A stretch of DNA of 64,000 nucleotides from contig NZ_JACHOU010000013.1 in the NCBI RefSeq assembly GCF_014206975.1, forward strand, positions 62,001-126,000, written 5' to 3'. This document shows, in pieces, positions 12,981 through 62,634 of the stretch. Every line of letters starts with the position of its first letter. The first letter of the stretch is position 1. The position numbers and the translations under genes were made by a program. The notes beneath the pieces were generated by a model. The model had not been told where the DNA came from and ran no database searches. It worked only from the letters and a program-made list of their open reading frames with translations. Origin of the DNA: Aminobacter aganoensis. GTDB lineage: Bacteria > Pseudomonadota > Alphaproteobacteria > Rhizobiales > Rhizobiaceae.

Positions 12981-14630
12981 ATGAAGTCGTTTTTGCGTAC
13001 CATCCTGGCGTCTGCACTGGTGCTGGGCGGAGCGATGTCGGCTCAGGCCGCCGACCGCGCCATCATCGTGCTCGACGCCTCGGGTTCGATGTGGGGCCAG
13101 ATCGACGGCAAGCCCAAGCTGGAGATCGCCCGCCAGGCGCTCCGCTCGGTGCTCACCACCATCCCCGCCGACACCGAGCTTGGCCTGATGGCCTATGGCC
13201 ACCGCGAAAAAGGCAGCTGTTCCGACATCGAGCTGGTGGTGCCGCCGGCGTCCGGTTCGGCAAGCGCCATCACCGCTGCCGCCGACAGCATGAAGTTCCT
13301 CGGCAAGACACCGCTTTCCGCCGCCGTCAAGCAGGCCGCCGAGGACCTCAAATACACCGAGGACAAGGCGACCGTCATTCTCATCACCGATGGGCTGGAG
13401 ACCTGCAGCGCCGACCCGTGCGCGCTCGGCAAGGAGCTTGAGCAGTCCGGCGTCGATTTCACCGCCCATGTCGTCGGCTTCGGCCTGACGGCGGAAGAGG
13501 GCAGGCAGGTCGCCTGCCTCGCCGAAAACACCGGCGGCAAGTACATCCAGGCGTCCGATGCGAAAGGCCTGGAGGACGCGCTCGCCCAGACCGTCGCCGA
13601 GCCTGCGCCGGCTCCAGCACCGGCACCCGCCCCCGAGCCGGCAAAGCCCGAATTCAACTTCGTGCCCGAACTGGCGCTGGCCGAGGGCGCAGCAGCCCTC
13701 AAGGACGCCGGCAATGCCTGGGAAATCTACAAGGCCAACGCCGACGGCACCAAGGGCGAACGCCTGACCACCGAATACAACAACTACAAGGGATCGCTCG
13801 AGCCGGGCGACTACGTCATCCGCGCGACGCTCGGCGAGGCAGCCGTCGAACAGCCGTTGAAGGTCGAGGCCGGCCAGGCCTACAAGCCGCTCTTCGTGCT
13901 CAATGCCGGCACGCTGATCGTCAGGCCCCGTCCCAGCGACGGTGGCGACATCAACACCGGTGCGGCCGTCGTTCTCGATTTCCCCGGCGCGTCGCATCCG
14001 GCCACCTATTACGGCGAGACCAAGATCGTGCTGCCCGCCGGCGAGACCAAGGTGAAGGTCACCATCGGTCAGGGCGAGGCCAACGAGACGATCCAGCTCG
14101 CCGCCGGCCAGACCGTCGAGAAGGACATCATCGCCGGCGTCGGCCGCGTGGTGGTCAACGCGCTTTATGCGCAGGGCGGCGACAAGGTCGATGCCGGTGG
14201 CCTCGATGTCAGGGTCTACAAGGCGAAGAAGAAGATCGACGGCACGCGCGAGCAGGTCACCTATGGCTACGGGCCGGACAACAAGTTCGACCTGCCGGCC
14301 GGAGATTATGTCGCCGTAGCGCGCATGGATCAGGCCGAGGCCGAACAGCCCTTCAACGTTCGTGTCGGCGAGGCTGGCGACGTGACCGCCGTGCTCGGTG
14401 CCGGCGTTCTGGCGATCGATGCTCCCGGGGCAAAGGAGATCCGGGTCTACGCCGCCAGGAAGGACATCCAGGGCAACCGCAAGGAATTCGGCTACGCTTA
14501 CGACCAGAAGCACCAGGCGACGCTGCCTGAGGGCGATTATGTCGTCGAGGCCGACCTGGGCGATGCCGGCAAGAAAGAGGGCTCCGCCAGCGTCAAGGCA
14601 GGCGAGCGCACCGAGCTGACCGTGCAGTAG
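12981..14630 (+). CDS. Secreted von Willebrand factor A domain protein with C-terminal beta-repeat modules
   Basis: 549 residues from ATG 12981, with GAGGGG upstream and a Sec signal peptide (MKSFLRTILASALVLGGAMS, cleavage near AQAA). The VWA domain follows directly, with the MIDAS motif DASGS at residues 32-36, so a bound divalent cation and protein-protein contact are likely. An Ala-Pro-Glu linker near residue 205 leads to about 330 residues of repeated modules built on a pattern of VY-x-A(K) x-GxR, LPAGDYV and a beta-rich tail (GDYVIRATLGEAAVEQP, GDYVAVARMDQAEAEQP, GDYVVEADLGDAGKKEG). Probably periplasmic; partners unknown. Confidence 0.85.
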   Translation: MKSFLRTILASALVLGGAMSAQAADRAIIVLDASGSMWGQIDGKPKLEIARQALRSVLTTIPADTELGLMAYGHREKGSCSDIELVVPPASGSASAITAAADSMKFLGKTPLSAAVKQAAEDLKYTEDKATVILITDGLETCSADPCALGKELEQSGVDFTAHVVGFGLTAEEGRQVACLAENTGGKYIQASDAKGLEDALAQTVAEPAPAPAPAPAPEPAKPEFNFVPELALAEGAAALKDAGNAWEIYKANADGTKGERLTTEYNNYKGSLEPGDYVIRATLGEAAVEQPLKVEAGQAYKPLFVLNAGTLIVRPRPSDGGDINTGAAVVLDFPGASHPATYYGETKIVLPAGETKVKVTIGQGEANETIQLAAGQTVEKDIIAGVGRVVVNALYAQGGDKVDAGGLDVRVYKAKKKIDGTREQVTYGYGPDNKFDLPAGDYVAVARMDQAEAEQPFNVRVGEAGDVTAVLGAGVLAIDAPGAKEIRVYAARKDIQGNRKEFGYAYDQKHQATLPEGDYVVEADLGDAGKKEGSASVKAGERTELTVQ

Positions 14631-14694
14631 GATTGTCTCGCGCTGCCTTTGCGGCTATGAAGGCGGCGCAACTCGAACGACAAAGGAGGGCTGC

Positions 14695-14766
14695 GTGATC
14701 GAGCATTTTTATCTCCACCGCCAGCGCGGCCCCGTCCACGCCCTGCAAATGCGTTTGCAGGGCTGA
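14695..14766 (+). CDS. Candidate 23-residue leader peptide upstream of the ABC-F gene
   Basis: A GTG-initiated frame of 23 codons plus TGA, preceded by an excellent Shine-Dalgarno AAAGGAGGG (14682-14690) with five-base spacing. The peptide reads MIEHFYLHRQRG then PVHALQMRLQG and is rich in His and Arg. Its last codons form one arm and loop of a perfect 9-bp hairpin (CCCTGCAAA at 14741-14749, TTTGCAGGG at 14754-14762). This geometry is like upstream ORFs that stall ribosomes to control ABC-F antibiotic-resistance or translation-rescue factors. Whether it is translated is inference from the ribosome-binding site and placement; I do not recognise the peptide. Confidence 0.55.
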   Translation: MIEHFYLHRQRGPVHALQMRLQG

Positions 14767-14935
14767 CCTCGGACGAGACGCCAGTCTTACTGAAGCTGTT
14801 CTCTTTACCGGTCTGCCCTTCGTGGTGATGCAGCGCTGAGCCGTTCGCTCGTGCGTCCGCATCGTGAATTTCCCGCCGGACCCGGTTCCCCATTGATGCA
14901 CCTTGTGAAGGTGCAGGCGACGGTCCGGACAGACC
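14741..14935 (+). promoter_or_regulatory. Structured leader between the small ORF and the ABC-F gene
   Basis: This untranslated stretch holds three nested or adjacent structures. The first is the 9-bp hairpin at 14741-14762 with loop TGCG. The second is an 8-bp hairpin TGCACCTT/AAGGTGCA at 14897-14915 with loop GTG. The third is an outer stem CCGGACC (14876-14882) with GGTCCGG (14922-14928) that encloses the second. GGTCTG at 14810-14815 can also pair with CAGACC at 14930-14935, close to the weak AGAGA ribosome-binding site of the ABC-F gene. Alternative folding governed by leader translation is plausible but unproven. Confidence 0.5.
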
Positions 14936-14946
14936 AGAGAACGAAC

Positions 14947-16476
14947 ATGGCTTTGATCAATCTGAGGTCGCTTGGCGTAACGCTCGGTGCTCCGCTTTTT
15001 TCCAATCTCAATCTTTCCATCGAGCCGGGCGACCGGCTCGGAATCGTCGCTGCCAATGGCCGCGGCAAGTCCACGTTGCTGCGAGCGATATCCGGCGGCT
15101 TCGAGCCCACTGCCGGCGACATCACCCGCTCGCGCGGCCTGCGCGTCGGCTATGTCGAGCAGGACGTCCCGGCGAAGCTTCTGGACGCAACGCTCTACGA
15201 TGCCGTGCTCCAGGCCCTGCCGGCCGACCAGGTCGACAGCGAGAGCTGGCGTGTCGACGTTGTGCTTGGCGAACTCGACGTCCCTGAAGAGCTGCGCGAG
15301 CGCCAACTGTCCAGGCTGAGCGGCGGCTGGCAGCGCCTCGTGCTCCTGGCACGCGTCTGGGTGACCGAGCCGGATGTGCTTTTGCTCGACGAGCCAACCA
15401 ACCATCTCGACCTGGCCCGCATCGGACAGCTGGAAGGCTGGCTCAACGCCCTGCCGCGCGACGTGCCGGTGGTGATCTGCAGCCACGACCGCGCCTTCCT
15501 CGACGCCGTGACCAACAGGACGCTGTTCCTCCGCCCGGAGAATTCACAAGCCTTCTCGCTGCCCTATTCCAGGGCACGCGAAGCGCTCGACGGGATCGAC
15601 GCCTCGGACGCGCGGCGCTTTGAGAAGGACATGAAGACGGCGCAGCAATTGCGTCGCCAGGCAGCCAAGCTCAACAACATCGGCATCAATTCCGGCAGCG
15701 ACCTTCTGGTGGTCAAGACCAAGCAGTTAAAGGAGAGGGCCGAACGCATCGAGGACAGCGCCCGGCCGGCCCATCTGGAGCGTTCGGCCGGCAGCATCAA
15801 GCTCGCCAACCGGGGCACCCACGCCAAGGTGCTGGTGACGCTCGACGACGCCCCTGTCACCACGCCCGACGGCACGCCGCTGTTCCGGACCGGCAAGCTG
15901 TGGGTCCGCCAGGGCGACCGCATCGTCCTGCTCGGCCGCAACGGCACCGGCAAGACGCGGCTGGTCAATATGCTCCGTCGCGCCATAGCCCAGCCCGATG
16001 TCGCGGTCGACGGCATCAAGGCGACGCCGTCGCTTGTTCTGGGCTATGGCGACCAGGGCCTGTCCGACCTTGCCGACAAGGACAGGCCGCTGGAGGTGCT
16101 GACGCGCCGCTTCGAGCTCGGCGAGCAGCGCGCCCGCACTTTGCTTGCCGGCGCAGGCATGACCGTCGACATGCAGTCGAACCCGATTGGCCGCCTGTCG
16201 GGCGGCCAGAAGGCTCGGCTCGGCATGCTGGTGCTCAGGCTCACCAACCCTAACTTCTACCTGCTCGACGAGCCGACCAACCATCTCGACATCGACGGGC
16301 AAGAGACGCTGGAGGCGGAACTGCTGAAGCACGAGGCCAGCTGCCTGCTGGTGTCGCATGACCGCAGCTTCGTCCGCGCTACGGGCAACCGCTTCTGGAA
16401 AATCGAGAAGCGGCGGCTGGTCGAAGTGGAGAGTCCGGAAGGGTTTTTCGCCGACGTGGCCAGGAACGGCGCGTAA
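14947..16476 (+). CDS. ABC-F family ATPase (ribosome-associated translation factor)
   Basis: 509 residues from ATG 14947. Two ABC ATPase domains in tandem without membrane segments define ABC-F. Domain 1 has Walker A AANGRGKST, signature LSGGW and Walker B DVLLLDEPTNHLD. Domain 2 has Walker A GRNGTGKTR, signature LSGGQKARLGML and Walker B NFYLLDEPTNHLDIDG. The inter-domain linker (about 220-260) is charged and helical (RRFEKDMKTAQQLRRQAAKL), as in factors that reach the ribosomal exit site. ABC-F proteins rescue or protect ribosomes, some giving antibiotic resistance. Which subgroup this is cannot be settled here. The gene sits behind a candidate leader peptide and hairpins, suggesting induced expression. 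Confidence 0.88.
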   Translation: MALINLRSLGVTLGAPLFSNLNLSIEPGDRLGIVAANGRGKSTLLRAISGGFEPTAGDITRSRGLRVGYVEQDVPAKLLDATLYDAVLQALPADQVDSESWRVDVVLGELDVPEELRERQLSRLSGGWQRLVLLARVWVTEPDVLLLDEPTNHLDLARIGQLEGWLNALPRDVPVVICSHDRAFLDAVTNRTLFLRPENSQAFSLPYSRAREALDGIDASDARRFEKDMKTAQQLRRQAAKLNNIGINSGSDLLVVKTKQLKERAERIEDSARPAHLERSAGSIKLANRGTHAKVLVTLDDAPVTTPDGTPLFRTGKLWVRQGDRIVLLGRNGTGKTRLVNMLRRAIAQPDVAVDGIKATPSLVLGYGDQGLSDLADKDRPLEVLTRRFELGEQRARTLLAGAGMTVDMQSNPIGRLSGGQKARLGMLVLRLTNPNFYLLDEPTNHLDIDGQETLEAELLKHEASCLLVSHDRSFVRATGNRFWKIEKRRLVEVESPEGFFADVARNGA

Positions 16477-16563
16477 TTCGCACCCAAGCTGCCTGCCGAG
16501 GCTGTGGCTTCGGCAGGCATCGGGCTCATGCTATCGTCTGCCCGCAAGCAACCAGGAGGCCGT

Positions 16564-16914
16564 ATGCGCTCGATCTTCACCGTCATCATGCTTGCTGCTG
16601 CGACCAATGCCGCGATGGCTTCCACCGTCACGCTCGACCTGCCGGGCGATGCCCCGGTCGAACGCAACGTCGTCGGCTACGAATGCGGCGACCAGTCCGT
16701 GAAGGCTGAGTACATCAACGCCGGCGACAACGCGCTCGTCGTGCTGACGCTCGGCGACCGGACGGTCGTCGCCGTCACCGTGTTGAGCGGCAGCGGAGCC
16801 AGATATGCCGGCCAAAACTACGTCTGGTGGACGAAAGGCGACAACGCTGACCTCTACGACCTGACCAAGGGCGAGGATGCACCGGCGGTGTTGTCTTGCG
16901 AGGCGGCGAAGTAG
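16564..16914 (+). CDS. MliC-like periplasmic lysozyme-inhibitor domain protein
   Basis: 116 residues from ATG 16564, preceded by AGGAGG. A short signal peptide (MRSIFTVIMLAAATNAAMA) leads to a mature domain of about 97 residues. The pattern YECGDQSVKAEYINAG, LSGSGARYAGQNYVWWTKGD and a final C-terminal Cys matches the MliC/PliC C-type lysozyme inhibitor fold, with a YxC at one end and SGARY in the inhibitory loop. There is no lipobox Cys, so it would be soluble in the periplasm rather than membrane-bound. It follows the ABC-F gene by 87 bp and probably has its own translation signals. Confidence 0.7.
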   Translation: MRSIFTVIMLAAATNAAMASTVTLDLPGDAPVERNVVGYECGDQSVKAEYINAGDNALVVLTLGDRTVVAVTVLSGSGARYAGQNYVWWTKGDNADLYDLTKGEDAPAVLSCEAAK

Positions 16915-16947: not shown

Positions 16948-17346
16948 TCAGCCCTTCAGCAAGGCCACCGGCCTTCCTTCGGCGGTTAGAAGGCGGGCAG
17001 CCCTCTTGTCGAACGTGGCGAACTGTTCGGCGCCCCCTCTGTAGCCCTCGTGTGCCATCGCCGCATCGGCGAAGTCTCCGCCAGCCCGCATGTGAGCAAG
17101 GCCCGCAGCCACGGCGGCCTGATCGGCGGCGACCTGGCGCGAGTTCAACAGGCTTTCAATGCTTTGGGCAATCGATGAGCGCGCGACGCCCCGGCTCCCC
17201 AGAACCCAGACAAGCTCGCAGAAGATGATCAGGGGAATGACGACCAATTCGGCATCGGCCAGCAGTGCTTGTGCCACACGTGTTTGGCCAGGGTGGTCGG
17301 CGAGCATGGCGCGGGCGAGCACATTGGTGTCGACGGCGACTTTCAC
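16948..17346 (-). CDS. vapC: PIN-domain ribonuclease toxin (VapC type)
   Basis: 132 residues. PIN-domain acidic residues are visible: VDTNVLARAM (Asp near residue 5), FCELVW (Glu near 44), and DFADAAMA near 91, then ATFDKRAARLL near the C-terminus. These coordinate Mg2+ for RNA cleavage; VapC toxins typically cut tRNA or rRNA. The start overlaps the stop of the upstream AbrB-type antitoxin gene by four bases (ATGA), the standard coupling of such pairs. All catalytic positions look intact, so the toxin is probably functional. Target RNA unknown. Confidence 0.9.
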   Translation of the reverse strand: MKVAVDTNVLARAMLADHPGQTRVAQALLADAELVVIPLIIFCELVWVLGSRGVARSSIAQSIESLLNSRQVAADQAAVAAGLAHMRAGGDFADAAMAHEGYRGGAEQFATFDKRAARLLTAEGRPVALLKG

Positions 17347-17597
17347 CGTTTGCCGGCCCAGCCGTCTGCGATGACCCTGTTCATTTCCTCAATGGTCAAA
17401 GGTGCTTGGTTGGGATCGTGAAGAATGCCGAAGATGACCTCGATGCCATGTCGTTTCTGCGGTGCTGCCTTGAGCACGACATTGCCGTCTGGCGCGAGAT
17501 CCAGAAGGATCTTGTCGCCAGGCCTGACGCCGAGGTGCTTCAGCACCTCTTTCCTGACCGTGATCTGGCCTTTCGACGTTACCGTAAGCGTTTGCAT
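17343..17597 (-). CDS. AbrB/SpoVT-fold antitoxin (VapB type)
   Basis: 84 residues. The N-terminal swapped-hairpin DNA-binding domain reads [20 protein letters not shown] then [11 protein letters not shown], the AbrB/MazE consensus. The C-terminal part ([16 protein letters not shown]) is probably the toxin-neutralising tail. It is the first gene of the pair. A perfect inverted repeat at 17616-17639, about 20 bp upstream of the ATG, is the likely site where the antitoxin-toxin complex represses its own promoter. Confidence 0.9.
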
Positions 17598-43402: not shown

Positions 43403-43479
43403 TGGTACGGTTGGGTGGGCTCGAACCACCGACCTCCGGATCCACAATCCGGCGCTCTAACCAACTGAGCTACAACCGC
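43403..43479 (-). tRNA. tRNA-His (GTG)
   Basis: 77 bases including an encoded CCA. Acceptor GCGGTTG pairs with CAACCGT (G1-T72 wobble), D-arm GCTCAGTTGGTTAGAGC, anticodon stem CCGGA/TCCGG with loop TTGTGGA (anticodon GTG), T-arm GGTGGTTCGAGCCCACC. The discriminator is A73 and the base before G1 is C, so no G-1 is encoded. Canonical bacterial tRNA-His has G-1 and C73; this derived form is known in Alphaproteobacteria and fits the genome assignment. Confidence 0.95.
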
Positions 43480-43615
43480 GTGCCTTGCTCTGGCGCAGCG
43501 TCCTTACGGACAATTCCAACACATTTCAAGAGCTTTGCGAACCATCCACTGCGGCGATTTGTGCCCGCGGCGCGAAGTCGCTGAATTCAGCGGGATATCG
43601 ACCCCGCAAAAAAGA

Positions 43616-43647
43616 AAAAGGCCGGCGGGAGGAGGTGCCGGCCTTTT
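43616..43647 (-). terminator. Factor-independent terminator of the phasin gene
   Basis: Perfect 11-bp stem AAAAGGCCGGC/GCCGGCCTTTT with a ten-base loop; on the minus strand it is followed by a near-continuous T-run (TTTTTCTTTTTTG). It lies about 95 bp after the phasin stop. The loop sequence GGAGGAGGT is repeated once more at about 43665. Confidence 0.85.
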
Positions 43648-43739
43648 CCTTTGGTGACCAGCGGGAGGAGGTGCTGGCCGCTTCGCCCGGCAGGCAGAGG
43701 GAGGAGGAACCGCCCGCCGGGTATCTTGTTCGGTCGCGA

Positions 43740-61722: not shown

Positions 61723-62634
61723 ATGTCCATCGCTGTCTCAGTGGTCGAGCCCAAATCTGTCGAGATCGTTTGTGACGATGGCGTCGCGTTGCGCGGCCAT
61801 GTCTGGCCACGGCCCGGTGGCACCGGCCTTGGCACGGTCGTCGTCAATCCCGCCACCGGCGTGCTGGCCCGGTATTATCACCGCTACGCCGCCTTTCTGG
61901 CCGGGCACGGTTTCGATGTCCTGACCTACGATTATCGCGGCATCGGTGCCTCGCGCCCGGTCGATTTGCGCCGCTGCGGCCATCGCTGGCGCGACTGGGG
62001 CGAACTGGATTTCGACGCCGTGCTGCGCTTCGCTGGCGCGCGTGATTCCGGCGCGCCGATCATGGTTGTCGGCCACAGCATCGGCGGTTTCCTGCCCGGC
62101 CTTGCCGAATCCGCCCCGGCCATCGCCCGCATGCTCACCATCGGCGCCCAATATGCCTGGTGGCGCGACTATGCCGCCGATCGCCGCCTGCGCCTGCTCC
62201 TGAAATGGCATGTCGCCATGCCTGCGCTCACCGCCCTGCTGGGCTATTTCCCCGGCAAGCGCCTTGGCTGGCTCGAGGACCTTCCCGCGGGCGTCGCCAA
62301 CGAATGGAGTTTTCGCCGCGCCCGGATGGAGCAGAGCCACCCGGAGGACGAGCGCAGCGCTGTCCTGCGTCGCCTGGCCGCCGTGTCCGCGCCCATCCTC
62401 GCCGTCGGCGTTTGCGATGACGAACTCGGCACGCCGCAGGCCATCAGGCGGGCGCTGGCCTACTACTCCGGCGCAAACGCGACCCAGATCCTGCTGTCGC
62501 CTGATGATTTCGACCGGCGCGAGATCGGCCATTTCGGCCTGTTCCACAGCGCTCACGCCGCAGATTTCTGGCTCGACACGCTGCTTTGGCTGCGCGACGG
62601 CATCAACCCGTGGCCCGGCAAGGTGCTTGGCTGA
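61723..62634 (+). CDS. Alpha/beta hydrolase
   Basis: 303 residues from ATG 61723, with GAGG upstream; an ATG at 61705 is possible. Nucleophile elbow VVGHSIGGFLPG, oxyanion region YDYRGIGASRP, acid Asp in VGVCDDELGTPQ and catalytic His in REIGHFGLFHS are all present. Serine esterase or similar with an unknown ester/amide substrate. It is adjacent and divergent to a TetR regulator, so probably inducible. Confidence 0.85.
   Translation: MSIAVSVVEPKSVEIVCDDGVALRGHVWPRPGGTGLGTVVVNPATGVLARYYHRYAAFLAGHGFDVLTYDYRGIGASRPVDLRRCGHRWRDWGELDFDAVLRFAGARDSGAPIMVVGHSIGGFLPGLAESAPAIARMLTIGAQYAWWRDYAADRRLRLLLKWHVAMPALTALLGYFPGKRLGWLEDLPAGVANEWSFRRARMEQSHPEDERSAVLRRLAAVSAPILAVGVCDDELGTPQAIRRALAYYSGANATQILLSPDDFDRREIGHFGLFHSAHAADFWLDTLLWLRDGINPWPGKVLG

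Follow-up and report, generated by a model that had tools for sequence, protein, structure and literature searches.

Short reading frames in front of genes for ABC-F proteins raise the question of whether they are mere by-products of the upstream sequence or part of the control of the downstream gene. We asked this of a 23-codon frame upstream of an ABC-F gene in Aminobacter aganoensis, in a window of 64,000 nucleotides that comprises positions 62,001 to 126,000 of contig NZ_JACHOU010000013.1 (forward strand; all positions below are those of the window). The conservation of the peptide and of the RNA pairing, together with an in silico switch driven by the ribosome footprint, makes it very probable that the frame belongs to a stall-dependent translational attenuator with an ErmC-like four-segment architecture, which would control an ABC-F protein, putatively of the ribosome-protection type. 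We infer the stall itself, and likewise the need for an elongation-inhibiting drug on the ribosome and the relief of the stall by the ABC-F protein.

The leader open reading frame (ORF) runs from a GTG to a TGA codon (14764-14766), encodes VIEHFYLHRQRGPVHALQMRLQG, and follows the strong ribosome-binding site AAAGGAGG at a distance of five bases. Both the 23-codon frame and its excellent ribosome-binding site, as claimed in an earlier note on this DNA, are therefore borne out. For comparison we used 78 loci. Chance matches were rejected (pattern matches L019, L024, and L029; profile matches L081, L084-L088, and L091), as were repeats (L011, L014, L015, L016, L030, and L035), a locus whose contig ends before the ABC-F gene (L004), one with an insert between leader and ABC-F gene (L058), and those with no leader (L012 and L013, along with L019 and L024). 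Over codons 8 to 14, which lie outside the hairpin described below, the ratio of nonsynonymous to synonymous changes (pN/pS) is 0.29 in the leader frame versus 1.23 and 1.53 in the other two frames, and over codons 6 to 15 of nine loci from the genus it is 0.22. Changes in this frame are mostly synonymous and not at the neutral rate, which is the purifying selection on a coding frame predicted for the leader of an ErmC-type attenuator. Gly12 and Pro13 are present in 78/78 loci, with all synonymous codons in use (GGC/GGT/GGA/GGG and CCC/CCT/CCG/CCA). Because our locus finder demanded GG.CC, seven bases, and GC, this Gly-Pro and its spacing from the hairpin are partly given by construction, and the fact that 0/78 loci failed is a check rather than a blind test. 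Retention is lower at R9 (69 of the 78), R11 (64), and V14 (65, with I in 8 and another residue in 5).

From codon 16 onward, the frame behaves like RNA. Ala16 is GCC in all 78 loci and marks the start of hairpin A, which is formed by codons 16 to 23 and pairs GCCCTGCAAA with TTTGCAGGGC (14754-14763) across the loop TGCG. The earlier note had the frame ending inside a perfect 9-bp hairpin; the hairpin is indeed perfect, but it is 10 bp long and the stop codon lies directly 3' of it. In the 74/78 loci with a 24-nucleotide hairpin (the other 4/78 are longer), pairs 1 to 8 are standard in 74/74, and several pair types occur at pairs 4, 5, 7, and 8, including exchanges of T-A to C-G and of C-G to T-A. 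Other clades build the arms as GCCCCGCG/CGCGGGGC or GCCCCACGA/TCGTGGGGC. Six loci (L095, L206, L126, L093, L070, and L208) have an early leader stop within the hairpin and retain the pairing, so that selection at the RNA level and at the peptide level can be separated. On the sequence evidence, there are two layers of selection, one on the peptide upstream of the hairpin and one on RNA pairing within it. The 281-base leader region as a whole also reaches a better fold than most of its 200 dinucleotide-shuffled versions (z of -2.69; 2/200 as good).

The strong amino acid conservation could also mean that the small ORF encodes a peptide acting in trans, unrelated to the ABC-F gene. We consider this hardly credible given that the C terminus of the leader is dispensable whereas the RNA hairpin is not, and given where the leader occurs. 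It is present in all 10 genomes of the genus that were searched, including the window's own, with the ABC-F gene next in nine and the contig ending first in the other (G007). When 151 genomes of the family were searched with a pattern allowing one mismatch, 16 matches were obtained from 15 genomes; 13 of these matches are leaders 5' of an ABC-F gene and 3 are chance. We then searched 397 genomes of the order with the leader profile and with the ABC-F protein, each on its own. Among the 53 profile matches with an E value of <1e-3, 51 lie directly 5' of an ABC-F gene, one more does so with an insert (G309), and one (L081, in G286) is a chance match in a long frame. Conversely, 62/397 genomes have an ABC-F orthologue (E value of ≤1e-120), and the leader precedes 61/61 of those that can be assessed, 54 by profile and 7 as diverged forms recognized by eye, such as MRITRLLQYGPRYAL and VLHQHFHHRTRGPVFAPRLISRG; the remaining orthologue (G269) begins at a contig edge. 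The frame is thereby conserved across the order, and the layout of leader and ABC-F gene exceeds chance as judged from its distribution. One locus, L052 (G457), has a leader, and its ABC-F is not among the matches at an E value of ≤1e-120. In L100 (G309 contig 1, 1475500-1479200), about 1.3 kb of DNA that looks transposase-like by eye separates the leader from the ABC-F gene, and the leader frame itself is uninterrupted.

The link extends beyond the order. A survey of 385 genomes of the class gave 21 ABC-F matches, one of them the window's own; the leader is found 5' of 11/12 orthologues with at least 53% identity and was seen in 0/8 homologues with about 43% identity or less. The leader therefore appears to belong to this ABC-F subfamily. 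Named carriers include Rhizobium mongolense, R. ruizarguesonis, Brucella pseudintermedia, and a Rhodospirillales metagenome-assembled genome, which are also four named close orthologues (61-75% identity) among the 80 matches listed. Leaders are also found in 4/12 plasmid records with a match, from Sinorhizobium meliloti, Pararhizobium qamdonense, and the Rhodobacterales Ketogulonicigenium vulgare and Gemmobacter fulvus, so that the unit of leader and ABC-F gene can sit on mobile replicons. The four are large plasmids, NZ_CP021819.1 (L226), NZ_CP119567.1 (L228), NZ_CP016593.1 (L227), and NZ_CP076363.1 (L229), two of which are predicted to be conjugative.

How could translation of the leader bear on the ABC-F gene? 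Segment 3, an element 3' of the leader that reads (CT)GGTCTGCCC in context, has two alternative partners. In helix B (2:3) it pairs with the leader tail GGGCUGACC(AG), and in helix C (3:4) it pairs with (GG)CAGACC(AG) adjoining the ABC-F start. In the window, the latter is a long-range pairing of GGTCTG (14810-14815) with CAGACC (14930-14935), just 5' of the ABC-F ATG. Pairs 1 to 4 and 6 to 9 of helix B are standard in 72-74 of 74 loci, a count that leaves out L096-L099, in which segment 3 is misplaced because its motif score is under 7. Exchanges on both strands of helix B give GGGCTGATC/GATCTGCCC in L064 and GGCTGAC/GTCAGCC in L094 and L096-L099. For helix C, matched 3:4 duplexes are stronger than species-swapped ones (0/2000 permutations as good). 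The mutually exclusive pairings expected of an ErmC-type attenuator, 1:2 and 3:4 versus 2:3, are thus conserved in relatives. The earlier note had also placed a second hairpin near the weak ribosome-binding site of the ABC-F gene. This hairpin is present (GCACCTT/AAGGTGC, 14898-14914) and takes the form GCATC/GATGC in some relatives, as traced by eye and within the genus only; the GGTCTG/CAGACC pairing matters more. The earlier picture of two hairpins therefore holds for the hairpins but not for the decisive structure, which is the switch between 2:3 and 3:4. Its broader proposal, that ribosome stalling controls the ABC-F gene, gains model-based support from the segment-level pairing and from the footprint-constrained folding below.

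In the ErmC scheme, known from mobile resistance elements, the off state combines pairings 1:2 and 3:4 and the on state consists of 2:3. By analogy, ribosomes would by default traverse the leader, hairpin A (1:2) would form, and segment 3 would pair with segment 4 next to the weak ribosome-binding site of the ABC-F gene, with poor translation of ABC-F as the outcome. Under induction, a ribosome would stall with Gly12 or Pro13 in its P site and cover segment 1 with its leading edge. With segment 1 covered, segment 2 would be freed to capture segment 3, which would release segment 4 and allow ABC-F to be translated.

We modeled this switch by folding each of the 78 loci with a ribosome footprint from P-14 to P+16 as the constraint and averaging the pairing of hairpin A (pA), helix B (pB), and helix C (pC). 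In free RNA, pA is 0.975, pB is 0.095, pC is 0.70, and opening the ABC-F start costs 10.6 kcal/mol. With codons 12 to 15 in the P site, pB rises to 0.64-0.66, pC falls to 0.30-0.33, and opening costs 7.9-8.2 kcal/mol, which is about 2.5-2.8 kcal/mol easier. Leaving out L096-L099, pB goes from 0.10 in free RNA to 0.69 at codon 12 and pC from 0.69 to 0.28. For the window's own locus, the opening energy drops from 15.9 to 6.0 kcal/mol at codon 12 (pB, 0.47; pC, 0.34). At codon 14, the change in opening energy is -2.63 kcal/mol (standard deviation [SD], 2.75) versus +0.08 (SD, 1.58) in 234 controls with a shuffled downstream part, a drop of >1 kcal/mol is seen in 58/78 loci versus 43/234 shuffles, and helix B exceeds helix C in 53/78 loci. 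Farther along, at codon 20, the model is unswitched (pB, 0.01; pC, 0.76; 11.3 kcal/mol), as it is under the termination footprint at codons 22 and 23 (pB, 0.00; pC, about 0.75; 11.6-11.7 kcal/mol). A further 19 loci were folded separately from the 78; taking the best of codons 12 to 15, opening becomes easier by >1 kcal/mol in 14 of them, as it already does at codon 10 in 8 and at codon 20 in 2. The invariant Gly12-Pro13 would thus be the best placed for a stall: a ribosome halted there would just start to cover segment 1.

The position of the switch bears on two kinds of trigger. Lincosamides, streptogramin A, and pleuromutilins stall ribosomes at the start codon on known upstream ORFs (uORFs) (PMC12421871). 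A start-codon footprint at codons 1 and 2 does not switch the model (pB, 0.09; pC, 0.69-0.70; 10.8-10.9 kcal/mol), and footprints at codons 3 to 6 also fail to do so. Alternatively, the leader could sense macrolides or ketolides through its RQR sequence, a +X+ motif, with Gln10 occupying the P site and Arg11 the A site, comparable to the ErmDL stall at Arg-Leu-Arg, where Leu is the P-site residue (PMC8298421). In favor of this, most loci retain R9 and R11, and 43/78 already open more easily by >1 kcal/mol under a footprint at codon 10. However, that footprint lies two codons short of the full switch and leaves hairpin A intact (mean pA, 0.99; pB, 0.20; pC, 0.56; 9.2 kcal/mol). The motif is also lost in some loci that retain Gly-Pro (RTY, LTY, RQC, RQF, and LSH), so that the Arg/Lys-X-Arg/Lys of macrolide +X+ leaders is not strictly conserved at the stall site. 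We rejected RQR as the stall determinant, since it is neither invariant nor best placed, and regard a macrolide sensor of this kind as improbable.

Several observations weigh against a four-segment attenuator stalled at Gly-Pro. The switching window is not sharp: the opening energy drops by >1 kcal/mol in 43/78 loci at codon 10, 55 at codon 11, 53-59 at codons 12 to 17, 34 at codon 18, and 9 at codon 20, and 18/78 loci stay short of this drop throughout codons 12 to 15. The switch is absent from 5 of the 19 additional loci, the S. meliloti and B. pseudintermedia copies among them, and the best-of-four count used for these loci favors the model over single-position comparisons. Helix B contains a U-U mismatch in 67/74 loci, and its species-swap test falls short of significance (P = 0.07) because both strands hardly vary. 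In two of the 11 class leaders (L211 and L216), Gly-Ser and Gln-Pro replace Gly-Pro. Finally, one orthologue with 65% identity (L207, in G799) has no recognizable leader and an AT-rich upstream region. Either a natural loss of the leader or a strongly diverged form is possible at that locus.

Attenuation could also act on transcription, as in vmlR or msrD, through a terminator 5' of the gene. A scan found no terminator-like site at 14560-15000, no T-run follows the 3:4 pairing by eye among the loci listed, and segment 4 abuts the ABC-F start codon; we therefore consider a terminator very unlikely. Because no terminator-like site was found, control looks translational. A Rho-dependent layer is possible.

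A more serious alternative keeps the RNA mechanics of the attenuator and changes the trigger. The nascent RxRGP would be an intrinsic arrest peptide that stalls without a drug, and the ABC-F protein would resolve the stall, so that low ABC-F activity would raise ABC-F translation by the logic of SecM and SecA. The invariant Gly-Pro and the frequent R11 fit such autogenous feedback, the R-G-P core is reminiscent of the RAPP/RGPP arrest family (PMC12992588), and MsrD suppresses its own leader-driven expression (PMC10314930). Nevertheless, the RAPP-like family needs its first Arg (AAPP is arrest defective) and Pro or Gly as the fourth residue (PMC12992588), whereas here 14/78 loci lack R11 and 73/78 have V or I in the fourth position. 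The chain at the stall would also be only about 10 to 16 residues long, judging by eye from the leader sequences. We hold this feedback to be a tentative possibility on the unlikely side. As a first guess, the trigger is an elongation inhibitor acting in the Gly-Pro context, with intrinsic arrest relieved by ABC-F ranked second. A still bolder idea, which we rate slightly lower again and offer as speculation, is that the leaders form an undescribed and ancient class of arrest peptides with the core R-[QT]-x-G-P-x-x-A and a Gly-Pro stall, spread across alphaproteobacterial orders and sensed through and relieved by its own ABC-F. If true, the ABC-F protein would be a translation factor that gauges its own ribosome workload.

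The ABC-F protein itself does not reach the NCBIfam cut-offs for resistance proteins (292 bits versus a cut-off of 380 for NF000355, with the Sal, Vga, Lsa, Msr, and OptrA models far below theirs). The predicted structure (predicted local distance difference test score of 87.8) shows a pair of long linker helices, and resistance ABC-Fs take the first five places in a PDB fold comparison, with EttA and human ABCF1 so close behind that resistance and housekeeping members are not separated. Its gene has the weak ribosome-binding site AGAGAAC. Upstream of the leader, a candidate promoter was recognized by eye, and its TTG-N17-TAT pattern is retained across 10 loci of the genus as aligned by eye. 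A sigma-70 promoter scan gave no hit above threshold, and because the pattern falls below this cut-off we treat the promoter as weakly indicated. Coordinates are collected in Table 1.

Table 1. Features of the leader region and the ABC-F gene in the window
Feature	Position	Strand	Basis or remark
Candidate promoter TTGTCT-N17-TATGAA, between upstream gene and leader	14633..14661	+	Pattern seen by eye
Leader ribosome-binding site AAAGGAGG	14682..14689	+	Sequence; purine-rich GGAGG-like site 5' of leader among loci listed
Leader ORF, core H-R-Q-R-G-P-V-x-A-L	14695..14766	+	Translation, conservation, pN/pS
Gly12-Pro13 codons, proposed stall site	14728..14733	+	78/78 loci, partly by construction; start of full switching window
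Segment 1, hairpin A 5' arm GCCCTGCAAA	14740..14749	+	Pairs 1-8 standard in 74/74, compensatory changes
Segment 2, hairpin A 3' arm and tail TTTGCAGGGCTGACC, holds leader stop codon	14754..14768	+	Pair analysis across loci
Segment 3, putative switch element GGTCTGCCC, able to pair with the segment 2 tail or segment 4	14810..14818	+	Conserved motif, pair counts, folding
Segment 4, CAGACC and weak Shine-Dalgarno (AGAGAA) of ABC-F gene	14930..14941	+	Matched 3:4 duplexes beat species-swapped ones
ABC-F protein, 509 amino acids, putatively regulated gene	14947..16476	+	

Directly 3' of the ABC-F gene, the window carries a gene for an MliC-type lysozyme inhibitor (16504-16914; Pfam PF09864), followed by two small minus-strand genes (16948-17597) that by eye resemble a VapC-type PIN toxin and an AbrB-like antitoxin. 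Elsewhere in the window, Rfam matches the alphaproteobacterial small RNA ar14 (RF02344, 70.2 bits) at 43611-43726, near a tRNA at 43406-43479.

Within this group of bacteria from soil and plants, the control system appears to be new. Rfam 15 has no family at the gathering threshold over the leader, the only match being snoR35 with an E value of 4.1. A literature search, with most subscription papers outside its scope, found no description of the leader, and searching for peptide strings gave 0 papers. In rhizobia and other Alphaproteobacteria, a conserved leader whose Gly-Pro does not vary would provide a new arrest motif, would point to the conditions that require an ABC-F protein of unknown spectrum, and would make the protection target of that protein accessible by a simple reporter screen.

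Attenuation as such is already known for the ABC-F genes vmlR, cplR, msrD, and tiaA, and translational attenuation is known for ermC and toiL. The attenuated ABC-F genes in the literature found come from Gram-positive hosts (msrD also from some Gram-negatives), and several have uORFs of few codons. The mechanism resembles that of ErmCL, where stalling on the leader rearranges the mRNA and makes the downstream ribosome-binding site accessible (PMC10219788), as our model predicts here; the present system differs in its ABC-F rather than methyltransferase target, its peptide, its implied Gly-Pro stall, and its spread over alphaproteobacterial orders. With cplR, vmlR, vmlR2, and lsaA it shares uORF control of an ABC-F gene, and induction of cplR requires stalling on its uORF rather than premature termination (PMC10201436). 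However, the uORF consensuses given for those genes have only 3 to 4 residues (MR[I/M], MIN, MK[L/Q], and MAGN), in contrast to about 15 to 28 codons with a core motif and an in-frame hairpin here. The msrD gene likewise has a leader peptide 5' of an ABC-F gene, with a drug-dependent stall and negative feedback by MsrD (PMC10314930), while the stall in our system is putative; its leader MYLIFM, its transcription terminator, and its streptococcal origin set it apart. The RAPP/RGPP arrest peptides (SecM, ApdA, ApdP, and ApcA) resemble most of our loci in having R-G-P where the stall is proposed. Members of that family have R-A/G-P (or R-A-G) and then Pro or Gly close to the C terminus, whereas the leaders described here have a short chain and continue with V (65), I (8), or another residue (5) in the 78 loci. 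Finally, toiL upstream of topAI is a Gram-negative uORF like this one, on which a drug-induced stall opens a ribosome-binding site and stalls are sensed at several positions (PMC12121999), but it differs in its gene, its peptide, its RNA, and its multiple stall positions.
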